Shown here in pieces: positions 2,985 to 14,693 of a DNA stretch of 40,246 nt. The DNA is from Desulfuromonas sp. (GTDB lineage Bacteria; Desulfobacterota; Desulfuromonadia; Desulfuromonadales; BM501). Every line of letters starts with the position of its first letter. Position 1 is the stretch's first letter. The notes under the pieces are model-generated. The model saw only the letters and a list, made by a program, of their open reading frames with translations. It had not been told where the DNA came from and ran no database searches. Location: the NCBI RefSeq assembly GCF_002868845.1, contig NZ_PKUB01000018.1, positions 120,790-161,035 on the forward strand, in the 5' to 3' direction. The position numbers were made by a program, and so were the translations under genes.

Positions 2985-3253
2985 ATGCCTGAATTGCCCG
3001 AGGTCGAGACGACCCCCCGGGGATCGCGTTGATGGCATGGCCCGGTCCATTCGCGGTGTGCTCGGTGGGCCGTTAACGCGGGGGAACCACCCTGCGGGCC
3101 TTTACCGATCAGGAAGGGAGGCCAGGCCACGGTGTCCCAGATCTAGAGGTTTACAGCAGGGAAGGGAAGGATTGTGCGCGATGCGAGGGGGTCGTCGTTC
3201 GAACTATGCTTGGGCAGCGCCCCACCTACTGGTACCGTAAAAGCCGGCGGTGA
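2985..3253 (+). pseudogene. mutM: Decayed mutM/fpg (formamidopyrimidine-DNA glycosylase) relic
   Basis: The ATG at 2985 starts MPELPEVETTPRG, the N-terminal signature of MutM with its catalytic Pro2 and Glu3; a frame break follows directly. From about 3027 one frame reads MARSIRGVLGGPL. From 3077 another reads RGGTTLRAFTDQEGRPG and then LEVYSREGKDCARCEG up to LGQRPTYW, ending at a TGA at 3251. Those are the conserved C-terminal helix and zinc finger of MutM in the right order. About 190 central residues are missing, at least two frame changes are needed, and the last two zinc cysteines are gone (WYRKSRR where a CxxC should be). The pieces are too well matched to be chance; the gene is dead. 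Confidence 0.85.
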
Positions 3254-7651: not shown

Positions 7652-10270
7652 ATGGCTCAAGCCACCCCCATGATGCGTCAGTATCTGGAGATCAAGTCCC
7701 AGTATCCCGACGCTATTCTTTTTTTCAGACTCGGCGATTTCTACGAGATGTTTCTGGACGACGCGGTGACCGCCTCGCGGGTTCTCGATATCACCCTGAC
7801 CTCGCGCAACAAGGGGTCTGACGACGAAATCCCCCTCTGTGGGATACCTTACCATAGCTGTCAGCCCTATCTTGCGCGTCTCGTGGAGCACGGCCACAAG
7901 GTCGCCATCTGCGAACAGGTGGAGGACCCGAAGACCGTCAAGGGGATCGTAAAGCGCGAGGTGGTCCGGGTGGTCACCCCCGGCCTGGTGGTTGACACCG
8001 ACACCCTCGAACCCAAGGAAAACAACTACCTCATGGCCGTCGCCTCGGGGGACGCTGCCGATGCCTTGGGAGTGGCTGTTGTCGATATCACCACCGGCGA
8101 GTTCCGGGTCACTCAGGTTTCAGACCTCGACGCAGTGCGCGGGCAGATCGCCTCGCTCGCTCCCAGCGAGATCCTCTTCTCAGAGGGGGAGGAGGGGGAA
8201 GGGAAGCTCAAGGCGCTCGCCCCCGTCCTGGATGGACGGATGGTCAACCGCCTTCCCGAATGGGTTTTTGAAACTGATCGTGCCGAAGGGTTGCTGTGCG
8301 GATTTTACGGCTGCGCGTCTCTCGACGGATTCGGCTGCTCAGGTCTTGACGGGGCGGTTCGCGCCGCCGGCGTCATTCTGCACTACCTGGAGGAGACCCA
8401 GAAGGGTGCCGTCGATCACCTGAAGCCCCTGTCGACCTATCACAGCGAACAGTTTATGATTCTGGACGAGGCCACCCGGCGCAACCTCGAGCTGACCTCC
8501 AGCCTTTATGACGGCCGCAAGCGCGGGTCGCTGCTCGGGGTTCTCGACCGGACGGTGACCGCCATGGGGGGGCGCAAGCTTCGCCAGTGGATCCAGCAGC
8601 CGCTCGTTCACGTGGAGAGGATCCGCAGCCGGCACGAGGCGGTGGCCGAGATGGTCGAAAAGAGCCTGGTCCGCGCCGAATTGCGCGAACTCCTGGACGG
8701 CGTCTACGACCTCGAGCGGCTTCACTCCAAGGTTGCCATGGGGACCGCGAACGCTAAGGACCTCGTCGCCCTGAAGGGCTCCCTTGAGCGACTGCCGGCG
8801 ATTATCTACTGTCTCTGCGCCCCCGAATCCTCTTTTCTCGCCGGGCTCCGGGTTGGGATCGACCCCCTCGAGGACGTGGCGGTGCTCATCGCCGGTGCCA
8901 TTGTCGATGATCCACCCTTCATCCTGCGTGAGGGGGGACTGATCCGGGACGGATACGACCAAGCCCTGGACGAACTGAGGGCCATCAGCCGGGAGGGGAA
9001 GGGTTGGATCGCCCGCCTGGAGACCGAAGAGAGAGAGCGCACCGGGATCGCCAAGCTCAAGGTGCGCTTCAACAAGGTGTTCGGCTACTACATCGAGATC
9101 ACCAAGAGCTTTCTCGACCGGGTTCCCGAGGACTACCAGCGCAAGCAGACCCTGGCCAACGCCGAGCGTTACATCACTCCCGCCCTCAAGGAATACGAAA
9201 GCAAGGTCCTGGGGGCCGAGGAAAAGTTGGTCGAGCTCGAATTCGACCTCTTCCAGCAGGTCCGGCAGCAGGCCGCTCTTCACGGGGGGCGCATCCAGGC
9301 GACCGCCGAAGCCGTCGCCACCCTCGACGTCGTCCTTTGCCTTGCCGAGGTGGGGCACGAGCGCAACTACGTTCGCCCCGAGATCGTCGAGAGCGATGAA
9401 CTGGTCATCGAGGAGGGACGCCACCCGGTGGTCGAAACGATGAGCCTCTCGGAACGCTTCGTGTCGAACGACGTGCTACTCGATACCGTGGAGAACCAGA
9501 TCCTCATCATCACCGGCCCCAACATGGCCGGCAAGTCGACCTTCATGCGCCAGGTGGCTCTCATCACCCTCATGGCCCAGATGGGAAGCCTGATTCCGGC
9601 GCGCTCCGCCCGCATCGGCGCGGTCGACCGGATCTTCACGCGAGTGGGGGCCAGCGACAACCTCGCCCGGGGCCAGTCCACCTTCATGGTCGAGATGACC
9701 GAGACCGCCAATATCCTCAACAACGCCACCCCGCGCAGCCTGATCGTACTCGACGAAATCGGCCGTGGCACCTCGACCTTCGACGGGGTCAGTATCGCCT
9801 GGGCGGTGGCAGAGTATTTGCACGACCATGCCCCGGTGGCGGCCAAGACTCTCTTCGCCACCCATTACCACGAACTGACCGATCTGACCCTGACCCGAGA
9901 GCGGGTCAAGAACTTCAACATCGCGGTCAAGGAGTGGAACGACCAGATCATTTTCCTTCGCAAGATCGTCAAGGGGGGCACCAGCCATTCCTACGGAATC
10001 CAGGTGGGGCGTCTTGCGGGGCTGCCCCTGGAGGTGATCGACCGTGCCAAGGAAGTGCTGAAAAACCTGGAGTCGGGTGAGTTCGAGAGGGAGGGCCAGC
10101 CGCGCCTGGCCCGCAGTGCCCGTCCCGCTCCGGCCAGGGATGTCCCCCAGTTGTCCCTCTTCGATGGAGGGGACGCTTCCCTGAGACAGCGGTTGGATGA
10201 GGTCGATGTCTCCGTGCTCACCCCTCTTGAGGCCCTCAATATCCTCGACGAACTGAAAAGACTGGTCTGA
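7652..10270 (+). CDS. mutS: DNA mismatch repair protein MutS
   Basis: This 872-residue protein recognises base mismatches and small loops and recruits MutL. The N-terminal mismatch-recognition motif ([10 protein letters not shown], with the Phe-x-Glu wedge) is at about residues 27-36. The Walker A motif GPNMAGKST begins at residue 622, with [12 protein letters not shown] and the THYHELTDL switch following. The end is the usual helix-turn-helix dimer region and a C-terminal tail. Length and order are standard for MutS1. The ATG has only a weak ribosome site. Its TGA overlaps the next ATG (TGATG), so the amidase frame is translationally coupled. Together with the mutM relic, DNA-repair genes occur twice in this window, one intact and one dead. 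Confidence 0.97.
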
Positions 10271-11967
10271 TGATGCCCTTAATTCGCCTTTTAAGCCTCA
10301 TCTTTGCCCTGTTTTTGATCATCCCAGGGGCCGTCGTCGCCGGGGATGCTGAAACCGATTACCAAAAGGCGCGGGAGAGCTACCGTCGGCTGCTCGGCTC
10401 GACCAAGAAGCAACTCTACCGGGAAAACTGGGAGCGGGTCATCGACCGCTTCCTCGCCGTCAAGGAAACCTATCCCCGCAACGACTTGGCCCCGTCCGGA
10501 CTCTACATGGCCGGCAAGGCGTGCCGAGGCCTCTATGGCGTCTCCCGCATCGCCCCAGACGCGCGTCGTGCAGCGGGGCTCTTCGATGCCGTCGCCGACA
10601 CCTATCCGGCAAGTTCCCTCGCAGACGACGCGCTGGTCCTGGCCGGGGAGATTTACCAGGAAACCCTGAAGGAGCCCAGGCAGGCTTACCTGCGCTTCGC
10701 AAGGGCGGCCGACCGATTTCCCGAAGGGGATATGGCCGGCAAGGCGTTGAAGAAGAAGAAGGAGCTGGCCCGCTACGCGCCTCCGGCCCCGGCTGCGCCA
10801 AAGCAGGCAGGCCGGTTGAGAGGAGTGCGCTTCTGGTCCAATCCCGGCTACACCAGAGTGGTTCTCGACCTGAGCCAGGAGGCGAACTACAGCTCCAATG
10901 TTCTGCCGGCCAAGCCCGAGCGGGGGGATCCCCCCAAGATTTTCCTCGACCTTCATGGCATCGCCCCCGGCGAAGCATTGCCCCAGGCGATGAGTGTGGA
11001 CGACGGTCTCCTGCGCAGGATCCGCACGGGCCAGCCCGAGCGCGGGACGGTGCGGGTGGTGCTCGATTTGGTCAGCATGAACGACTACAAGGTCTTCCCC
11101 CTTCAGGACCCTTACCGCCTGGTCATCGACATCGGGGGGGAGGGGCAGCGGCAGGCCCAGGCTACCCATCCCGAGATCAGTTACCCGCCCCCGTCGAGCG
11201 ACGGGATCGACCGGATTCTCGATCAAAGCCCCCGGGAGAGGCCCCTGAAGATCAAGCTGCCCGCAACCCAATCCCATGGGGGCTTGCGACGCATCGTGGT
11301 CGATGCCGGCCACGGCGGAAAAGACCCCGGGGCCGTCGGCCCGAGTGGAACCTATTAAAAGGACGTGACTCTGGCTCTGGCCAAGGAATTGGCCAAGCGT
11401 CTGGAGAAGGAGTTCGGCTGCGAGGTGATCCTCACCCGGGACCGGGATGTCTTCCTGCCCCTCGAGGAACGAACCGCCATCGCCAACAAGGTCGATGCCG
11501 ACCTGTTAATCTCGGTTCACGCCAACGCCAACCGCAACAGAAAGGCCTACGGTGTCGAGACCTTTTACCTGAACTTTTCCAAGAACGACAAGGCGGCCGC
11601 AGTGGCCGCCCGGGAAAACGGGACGTCCCTGAAGCAGGTCGGCGATCTGGAACTGATCCTGTTCGACCTGATGGCCAACGCCAAGATCAACGAGTCGAGC
11701 CGGCTTGCCTCGGAGATTCAGAGGGCCCTGGTCAATGACCTGGGCAAGGAGTACAAGGAAATCCGCGACCTGGGAGTCAAACAGGGGCCCTTCTACGTGC
11801 TGCTCGGAGCGACCATGCCCTCGGTTCTCGTGGAGGCCGCCTTCATCAGCAACAAACGCGAGGAGAAGCGGCTCACCGACCGACGCTTCCAGCAGAAGAC
11901 CGGCTCCGCCATCGTGCGGGGCATCCGCAATTACGCAACCGCCCTTAAACTGATCGCAGCCAAATGA
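10270..11967 (+). pseudogene. N-acetylmuramoyl-L-alanine amidase (TPR-AMIN-Amidase_3) interrupted by an in-frame TAA
   Basis: The frame encodes a signal peptide (residues 1-25), TPR-like helices to about 165, an AMIN domain at about 175-290 and a zinc amidase domain from about 335 to 560. It is the secreted cell-wall amidase that splits daughter-cell peptidoglycan. At 11356-11358 a TAA interrupts it after residue 362, and the same frame continues for 202 more residues with no shift. The family reads GTxEKDVxLA here, so the stop sits exactly at the zinc-ligand glutamate; GAA to TAA is one base. The other ligands are intact (H348 in DAGHGG, H417 in SVHAN) and so is the catalytic E522 in VLVEAAFIS. 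The downstream half has no usable ribosome site. It is either a recent nonsense mutation or a base-calling error. Confidence 0.88.
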
Positions 11968-14693
11968 CTTCTATAGAGAACCCCCAGGAGTGCCCAGAAA
12001 AGACCGCTAAACCTTTTTTCTCTCCGAAGGAACTGACCGATCCCGGCATTCCCTTCGAGGAGCGCAGGGCCAATCTGCTGGAGGCCTCCAGCAAATACCT
12101 CGGATATTTCCGGGACTGTATCAGGGAGAAGCACCGGCAAGGCGCCTCCGGCCGGGAGATCGTCGGGCGCCTGACCGCCTTTACCGACACCCTGCTTCGA
12201 AACCTTTACTGTAGCCTCTCCGCGGACCTGGTCGAGCAGGACCTTGAGAATTGCGCCCTCATCGCCCTCGGCGGCTACGGCCGGGCCGAGCTCAACCCCG
12301 GTTCAGACATCGACCTCATGTTCTTCTACGGGGGCAAGGACCGCACTTTTGCCGAGCAGGTCTCCGAGCGAATGCTCTACCTCCTCTGGGACCTCGGTTT
12401 CGACGTAGGGCACAGCGTGCGCACGGCCAAGGATTGCCTCGACATGGCCGAGCGAGACATCACCGCTCGCACCGCCCTGCTCGACGGCCGTTACCTGGTC
12501 GGTTCAGAAACCCTGTACAGAGAGTTCGAGCAATCGGTCTTGAAGCCGGTGATGGGGCGCAACACCAAGGCTTTCCTTCGCGAGAAAATCGAAGAGAATG
12601 ACAGGCGGCTGGGCAAGTACGGCTCTTCGGTCTACCTCCTGGAGCCCAACATCCAGGAGGGGGAGGGGGGGCTGCGCGACCTCCACACCGCCATCTGGAT
12701 GGCCCGGGTCAAGTTCAAGGCGAGCTCCCTTCGCGATCTCCTCATCAAGGGCGTTCTGACCGAACAGGAGGAGGCCGCCTTTGAGCAGGCCTTCGACTAT
12801 CTCTGGCGGATTCGCAACGAGCTTCACTACATCTCCCCGCGCAAGAATGAACAGATCCATTTCGACCAGCAGGAGCAGATCGCCAAGTTCCTCGGCTACC
12901 GGGACAGCAAGCGGGCCCTGGCCGTCGAGCAGTTCATGCAGGACTACTACGCCCACGCCACCGAGGTCGAGCACCTCGCCTCAACCCTTATCACCAAGGC
13001 GACCCAGCAGGAGGAGCAGACCACGCGCATTCTCGGCTACTTCACCCGAAGGAACCTCGAGGACGGGTTCTATGTCCTGAGGGGGGAATTGCGCGTTTCC
13101 GTCGACGACCTGTTCGAAAAAGATCCCGCTCTCATGATGCGCGCCTTTCTCCTGGCAAAAAACCACGGAGTGCGCCTGAGTGTTCCTCTCAAGGGGCTGA
13201 TCCGCGCCAACCTTCACCGCATCAACGACCGGGTGCGTCGCTCCCGGGCTATGACGGACGACTTTTTCGGTATCCTGCGCAAGCCCCACGGGGTCGGGGA
13301 CACCCTGCTGGTCATGCATCACCTGCGCTTTCTGAACCGCTTCATCCCTGAGTTCGAGCGCATCTACTGCAATGTCCAGCACGATCTTTATCATATCTAC
13401 ACGGTGGACATTCACTCCATCTTCGCCCTTGAGGAGATTGCCAAACTGTGGCGCGGCGATTACGCCCGGAAGAAGCCCCTGCTGACCAAAATCGCCAACG
13501 ATATCGAGAAGCGTGAACTTCTGTTGCTGGCGGTTCTTCTCCATGACATCGGCAAGGGGGAGGGAAAGGACCACTGCAACAAGGGCGCGGACATGATCCC
13601 CACCATTGCGCGGCGCCTCGGCCTCAACAAGGAGGACAGCCAGCGCCTCGAGTTCCTGGTCCGTCAGCACCTGCTCATGGCTCACAACGCCCAGCGCCGC
13701 GATCTGCACGACGACAAGCTCATTCTTCAGTTTGCCCGCACCATGGGAATGAGCGAGAACCTCAAGATGCTCTACCTGCTGACCTTTGCCGACATCAAGG
13801 CCGTCGGCCCGGAGGTCTGGTCCGAGTGGAAGGGGTTTCTCCTGCAGGAACTCTACGAGAAGACCTACGACGTTCTCGAAAGGGGCGATTTCCGCCTCGA
13901 AAAGCGCTCGGAAAAAGTTCGCAACCGCAAGCGCAAGGTCGTCGGCCTGCTCGAGGAGGAGTTCGGCACCAAGGTCATCAAGGGGGTGCTGCGCGGGATG
14001 AACACCCGCTACCTCCTTTCCCACCGCTCGGCCGAAATCGCCGAACACCTGAGGGTTTTTCTCGGGCGGGGGGAAAAGCCTTTGGCCATGAAGGTGGAGC
14101 AGGGAACCCAGGGCGAATATACCCAGCTCACCATTTCCACCGTCGACATCCCCGGGCTCTTCTCCAAGATCACGGGAGTTATGGCCGCAAACGGCATCAA
14201 CATCCTCGGTGCCCAGATCTATACCCAGAACCAGGGGGTGGCCCTCGACATCCTGCAGGTGAGCAGTCTCACCGGCGAGATTATCGTCAACCCTGAAAAG
14301 TGGCGCCGGGTGCAGAAGGACCTTGTCGGAGTGGTGGAGGGACGCCTCCGGGTCAAAGAGCTGGTCAAACGCTGCAAGGAACCTTCCTTCGTGGGTGAGC
14401 GCCCCAAACCCCGGTTCACCAACCGGGTGGAGATCGACAACGAGGTCTCCGACGAGTACACCGTGGTCGATATTTACGCCCACGACAAGGTCGGCCTCCT
14501 TTACCAGATCACCAGAACGCTGAAGGAGCTTGGGTACTACATCGGGGTGTCGAAGATTTCGACCAAGGTGGACCAGATCGCCGACACGTTCTACATCCAG
14601 GATATTTTCGCCCAGAAGGTCACCTTTGAGGACAAGCTCGAGGAGCTCAACCGACGGCTTCTCGAGTGCCTCGACGCCGAACTCGGAAGCTAG
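11964..14693 (+). CDS. glnD: [Protein-PII] uridylyltransferase / uridylyl-removing enzyme
   Basis: This 909-residue cytoplasmic sensor adds UMP to PII when glutamine is low and removes it when glutamine is high. The nucleotidyltransferase signature GGYGRAELNPGSDIDLMFF gives metal residues D115 and D117. The HD hydrolase motif LLHDIGKGEGKDH gives H527 and D528. Two ACT domains for glutamine sensing close the protein, at about 710-790 and 825-900 (ISTVDIPGLFSKITGVMAA and VDIYAHDKVGLLYQITRTL). All four parts are present and intact. Its ATG overlaps the amidase stop by 4 bases (ATGA), so its translation is probably coupled to the amidase frame, which now holds a nonsense codon. Confidence 0.96.
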   Translation: MTSIENPQECPEKTAKPFFSPKELTDPGIPFEERRANLLEASSKYLGYFRDCIREKHRQGASGREIVGRLTAFTDTLLRNLYCSLSADLVEQDLENCALIALGGYGRAELNPGSDIDLMFFYGGKDRTFAEQVSERMLYLLWDLGFDVGHSVRTAKDCLDMAERDITARTALLDGRYLVGSETLYREFEQSVLKPVMGRNTKAFLREKIEENDRRLGKYGSSVYLLEPNIQEGEGGLRDLHTAIWMARVKFKASSLRDLLIKGVLTEQEEAAFEQAFDYLWRIRNELHYISPRKNEQIHFDQQEQIAKFLGYRDSKRALAVEQFMQDYYAHATEVEHLASTLITKATQQEEQTTRILGYFTRRNLEDGFYVLRGELRVSVDDLFEKDPALMMRAFLLAKNHGVRLSVPLKGLIRANLHRINDRVRRSRAMTDDFFGILRKPHGVGDTLLVMHHLRFLNRFIPEFERIYCNVQHDLYHIYTVDIHSIFALEEIAKLWRGDYARKKPLLTKIANDIEKRELLLLAVLLHDIGKGEGKDHCNKGADMIPTIARRLGLNKEDSQRLEFLVRQHLLMAHNAQRRDLHDDKLILQFARTMGMSENLKMLYLLTFADIKAVGPEVWSEWKGFLLQELYEKTYDVLERGDFRLEKRSEKVRNRKRKVVGLLEEEFGTKVIKGVLRGMNTRYLLSHRSAEIAEHLRVFLGRGEKPLAMKVEQGTQGEYTQLTISTVDIPGLFSKITGVMAANGINILGAQIYTQNQGVALDILQVSSLTGEIIVNPEKWRRVQKDLVGVVEGRLRVKELVKRCKEPSFVGERPKPRFTNRVEIDNEVSDEYTVVDIYAHDKVGLLYQITRTLKELGYYIGVSKISTKVDQIADTFYIQDIFAQKVTFEDKLEELNRRLLECLDAELGS

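Follow-up and report, generated by a model that had tools for sequence, protein, structure and literature searches.

We analysed a 40,246-nucleotide stretch of Desulfuromonas sp. DNA (hereafter, the window), in which a gene for a putative peptidoglycan amidase lies between intact mutS and glnD genes (Table 1). Its reading frame runs from an ATG at 10270 through 565 codons to the terminal TGA, and the sole break in it is a TAA at codon 363. A Pfam profile search matched the open stretch ahead of this TAA to AMIN (PF11741, E 3.2e-12) and the one behind it (11359-11964) to Amidase_3 (PF01520, profile positions 23-174, E 4e-43), in agreement with the initial annotation, which had described a frame intact on either side of a nonsense codon. 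The ~185 residues N-terminal to AMIN gave no Pfam match at E 0.001. The 3' half alone scored 147.9 bits against PF01520, above the curated cut-off of 27 bits, which places the gene among the Amidase_3 peptidoglycan amidases; with the one TAA included, the whole region scored 185.9 bits. Among the 80 named loci of relatives, some of which are clipped by contig ends, mutS was matched at 74 and glnD at 77.

The division-type N-acetylmuramoyl-L-alanine amidases AmiB, AmiC and AmiA have the same AMIN plus Amidase_3 architecture, and the zinc-site motifs of the window amidase align with those of both AmiC (4bin) and AmiA (8c2o). It differs from them in that the assembled gene has TAA in place of the Glu ligand. 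The probable product of this gene in living cells is an ordinary peptidoglycan amidase with AMIN and Amidase_3 domains, similar in kind to AmiB and AmiC. A second Amidase_3 gene, which the initial annotation had proposed to look for, was found intact on another contig (C44) of the same genome and was the only other one recovered by the family search.

Table 1 Features of the window and in-frame stops of the same genome. Coordinates without a locus handle are those of the window; fractions give the relatives (or rows, where stated) with the residue at the position of the stop.
Feature	Position	Strand	Stop	Residue in relatives	Remarks
mutM remnant, N-terminal	2985..3029	+			15 codons (MPELPEVETT...)
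mutM remnant, C-terminal	3080..3250	+			57 codons in a different frame; last two zinc-finger Cys gone
mutS	7652..10270	+			Intact upstream neighbour, 872 aa; named by NCBIfam
Amidase gene, 5' part	10270..11355	+			362 codons: start, AMIN, first ~21 codons of Amidase_3, first zinc His (CAC, 11311-11313, His65 equivalent, placed by AmiA alignment)
Amidase gene, in-frame stop	11356..11358	+	TAA	Glu, 80/80 loci (best 80 of 280)	Zinc-ligand Glu position, AmiA Glu80 equivalent
Amidase gene, 3' part	11359..11967	+			Remaining Amidase_3, second zinc His (11518-11520), presumed catalytic Glu (11833-11835), natural stop TGA (11965-11967)
Possible GTG restart frame	11365..11967	+			200 aa
glnD	11964..14693	+			Intact downstream neighbour, 909 aa; named by NCBIfam
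gyrA	L211 6713		TAA	Asp, 5/5	Single in-frame stop; Asp not one step from stop
accD	L216 15994		TAG	Glu, 5/5	Single in-frame stop
aspS	L323 12534		TAA	Glu, 5/5	Single in-frame stop
PhnA gene				Glu, 4/4	
cmk				Glu, 4/5	
Gene at L205	L205			Glu, 2/2	
Gene at L122	L122			Glu, 3/4	
Gene at L311	L311			Glu, 4/4	
Gene at L313	L313			Glu, 4/4	
PilT gene				Glu, 5/5 nearest	Three paralogs shown differ
ZnuC gene				Glu, three PDB sequences of zinc-transporter ATPase	ABC paralogs mixed
Gene at L203	L203			Ser, 5/5 orthologs	Two distant paralogs differ
Cfa-like gene	L209			Ser, 5/5 rows	Paralogs included
Gene at L204	L204			Ser, 2/3	
Gene with Gly-position stop			TGA	Gly, 4/4	
MocR-like gene				Gln, 2/3 genomes	
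Gene with Lys-position stop				Lys, 4/6 rows	
ilvD				Ala, 2/3	Ala not one step from stop

In the alignment with AmiA, the stop falls on a Glu 15 residues past the His of the DPGHGG motif. The AmiA zinc ligands are given in PMC10268282 as His65, Glu80 and His133, with Asp135 and Glu167 in addition in the resting state, and the His65-Glu80 spacing matches this distance, so that the stop can be equated with Glu80. The nonsense codon thus lies where the initial annotation had put it, at the zinc-ligand Glu. Its further statements, that the whole catalytic domain is removed and that all other ligands and the catalytic Glu are still encoded downstream, hold in part. The second zinc His and the Glu that we take to be catalytic are downstream, but the first His is upstream, and about 21 Amidase_3 codons are spared ahead of the stop. 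No single open frame contains the complete His-Glu-His zinc set together with the catalytic Glu, as TAA replaces the Glu.

Glu occupies the position of the stop at every one of the 80 named loci in relatives (the best-scoring 80 out of 280, some of which share a genome). No stop was present in the best amidase match of any of 57 other genomes, which are related at the order level only and overlap with the 80-locus set. Conservation downstream of the stop had been described as full, and among the fully conserved positions we found a single exception, codon 413 (TTA, 11506-11508), just ahead of the SVHAN zinc motif, which encodes Leu where 80/80 loci have Phe. If it arose by C>A from TTC, the domain would contain two G:C>T:A changes, but T>A from TTT is also possible. 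Codon 223 likewise carries a private change at a near-invariant place (79/80 loci). A single base change would turn any of 144 amidase codons into a stop, and for 64 of these the change would be G:C>T:A. The chance of hitting one of the two active-site Glu codons among these targets is roughly 1-3%, for a coincidence that was spotted post hoc in a genome with many stops. We found no support for a special role of the zinc-ligand position, which is one Glu codon among several struck in this genome.

Could the gene be truly split into two products, with a restart at the GTG six bases past the stop? AAGGA immediately precedes this GTG, but it ends one base ahead of it, too close by the usual spacing. 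Of the three zinc ligands, the second product would have neither the first His nor the Glu, and for that reason it is not expected to be active as an amidase, and no relative is split at the site, either among the 80 loci or in the best matches of the 57 genomes. We consider a split gene extremely improbable.

In-frame stops were then sought across the assembly (G000). A strict coding-frame scan revealed 23 other in-frame stops in 1.24 Mb (TAG, n = 15; TAA, n = 5; TGA, n = 3), a few of which resemble gene boundaries, and the same scan of two relatives found none in 380 kb (G019) and one in 400 kb (G010). With a lax setting, which also picks up gene boundaries and gave several rows that resemble them, clean in-frame stops numbered 38 for G000 (840 kb), 5 for G019 (380 kb) and 7 for G010 (400 kb); the amidase stop was detected at the lax setting only. 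These scans replaced an earlier one based on codon usage, which was swamped by shadow frames. In searches by protein family, a stop was present in one of the two Amidase_3 matches of G000, and in one each of the matches to Response_reg (n = 94), Radical_SAM (n = 46) and HATPase_c (n = 71), although six relative genomes likewise have weak matches that contain stops, as matches can overrun gene ends. For ABC_tran, one stop was found among the 25 matches listed of 42, and none among the matches listed for three relatives. A weak family match with TAA was also seen at C20:51014 (L304). Frameshifts were not in excess in G000, at 121 per Mb versus 129 and 105 in relatives, counting events that include gene overlaps. 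The assembly is 99.84% complete in 56 contigs and does not look like a low-coverage assembly, which speaks against sequence errors as the source of the stops. A plasmid search gave no match.

We examined the residues replaced at 40 stops (two sets of fragments, of 26 and 13, plus the amidase), picked from the scans and family searches and thus not comprising all scan hits. A majority residue, taken from at least two relatives (for ZnuC, from the PDB), was assigned for 19 of the 40, i.e., Glu (n = 11), Ser (n = 3), and Gly, Gln, Lys, Asp and Ala (n = 1 each). The site was variable or covered by one relative for seven stops (L113, L114, L201, L324, L213, L214 and lysC), aligned too poorly for one (L127 10561), and was covered by no relative for 11 more. 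Two candidates, L217 3116 and L218 6277, were dropped as ordinary gene ends, since the relatives stop there too.

A G:C>T:A change fits 15 of the 17 stops with a one-step residue (11 Glu, 3 Ser and 1 Gly, with Ser counted on the assumption of a TCG codon), compared with a share of 47.7% expected from codon usage at equal rates (binomial tail 0.0006; 0.006 for 15/19). Among all 19 assignable stops, four cannot be explained by a single G:C>T:A step. The sequence context of the 15 showed no clear bias beyond codon make-up. The single GAA to TAA change put forward in the initial annotation agrees with the type of change seen at these stops.

If UAA and UAG were decoded as an amino acid in the organism, readthrough would make the amidase whole, stops in essential genes would be tolerable, and 11 of the 19 assignable stops are indeed at Glu positions. 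UAA as Glu was considered when the first three hits were all TAA, seemingly at Glu, and was dropped given the Ser and Gly positions, the TAG and TGA sites and the lack of a matching tRNA. The remaining residues (Ser, Gly at a TGA, Asp, Gln, Lys and Ala) are too varied and all three stop codons are involved, which disfavours a recoding with a single amino acid. The anticodons UUA, CUA and UCA are all missing from the 45 tRNAs found, in which the two tRNA-Glu are UUC, and TAA and TAG serve as ordinary terminators, ending 110 and 168, respectively, of 573 genes with a terminal stop. Neither one amino acid across genes nor a tRNA with the matching anticodon was found, and we regard recoding as very improbable.

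The assembly has one match each for gyrA, accD, lysC, cmk, ilvD and thrC, and in each the stop lies within the match. The gyrA, accD and aspS genes were each well above the NCBIfam cut-off, and the names lysC, cmk, ilvD and thrC pass as well. A cell without gyrA, accD or aspS should not live, judging from model bacteria, so the in-frame stops of this genome cannot all be inherited nonsense mutations of a living cell. Inherited nonsense pseudogenes would be expected among dispensable genes, and the stops here are not confined to these. By judgement rather than computation, the share of stops in essential-type genes looks like random placement. The process behind the stops in gyrA, accD and aspS would then also be the simplest explanation for the one in the amidase.

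We infer that the stops are errors solely from this expected lethality, with essentiality known from model bacteria. The amidase TAA is thus likely a G:C>T:A error, or unrepaired damage, that was fixed in the assembly and is absent from the gene of the living cell. Oxidised guanine, whether as DNA damage or as a library artefact, gives G:C>T:A errors, and guanine oxidation may be the chemistry behind the stops. Base damage of this type, or base error, would have been carried into the consensus, giving mainly G:C>T:A substitutions that are noticed where GAA or GAG, TCG or GGA become stops. Such damage or error would be expected to strike essential and dispensable genes alike, without extra frameshifts. 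The G000 stops resemble oxidised-guanine errors in substitution type, in having no frameshift excess and in their blindness to gene importance, but differ in that they sit in the assembled consensus. The initial annotation had offered two origins for the amidase stop, and of these our survey favours the base-calling error over the very recent mutation.

The window itself holds a feature that points the other way. The mutM (fpg) gene is reduced to a two-piece remnant with ~200 codons missing between the pieces (Table 1), whereas full-length mutM was found in 19 of 23 other genomes searched. The MutM product removes oxidised guanine. Together with mutT and mutY it forms the GO system, which protects against G:C>T:A according to PMC11078426. 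Since mutM is truly decayed, a real G:C>T:A mutation is likelier than usual. The lineage could be a mutator and the TAA a genuine nonsense mutation of very recent date, with the amidase being one of many genes hit (here GAA>TAA). The gene would then yield an AMIN protein of 362 residues with no amidase activity, partly covered for by the second Amidase_3 protein. The residue spectrum of the stops fits a G:C>T:A mutator, the second amidase is intact, and codon 413 may be another C>A change. The G000 stops resemble those of GO-system mutators in the decayed mutM and the predominance of G:C>T:A, but differ in that mutY is intact and that genes expected to be essential are struck, with gyrA and accD found in one copy each and a stop also in aspS, which a living cell would not be expected to tolerate. 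Moreover, no mutM was found in G010, which also lacks an excess of stops. We therefore consider a true mutation unlikely.

Private changes were counted in gyrA, accD, lysC and a carboxylase gene, four genes chosen because of their stops. G000 had 52 compared with 19-28 in five relatives, with all classes raised, and its G:C>T:A changes numbered 7 compared with 1-2. Part of the G000 excess reflects a longer branch, since three of the five relatives belong to one family and have lower private counts as a result.

It appears quite improbable that a living MutM-less bacterium has genuine G:C>T:A nonsense alleles by the dozen, including those in gyrA, accD and aspS, and survives by polyploid intact copies or leaky readthrough. 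Were the stops real, the loss of a repair gene would be readable directly from the dead genes of a natural lineage, and the amidase product would retain AMIN but have no catalytic function. With the stops as errors, the reading that we favour, the losses called from this assembly (among them the amidase, cytidylate kinase and the zinc importer ATPase) are false, and whether stops strike essential genes can serve as a screen for other assemblies.

Some minor observations concern the tRNA genes. A stem check found 0 of 930 bracketed pairs to be non-canonical, a count in which few hits are expected and for which ARAGORN may bracket good pairs only. By eye, both tRNA-Asp genes (L149 and L150; C4 ~94187 and ~94392) have a seemingly unusual D arm, with an A12-A23 mismatch and G13-C22, the usual form at 13-22 being C-G. 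A tRNA-Leu(caa) gene is located at the extreme ends of two contigs (C38:133417 and C53:59336), perhaps reflecting a shared repeat or overlapping ends.
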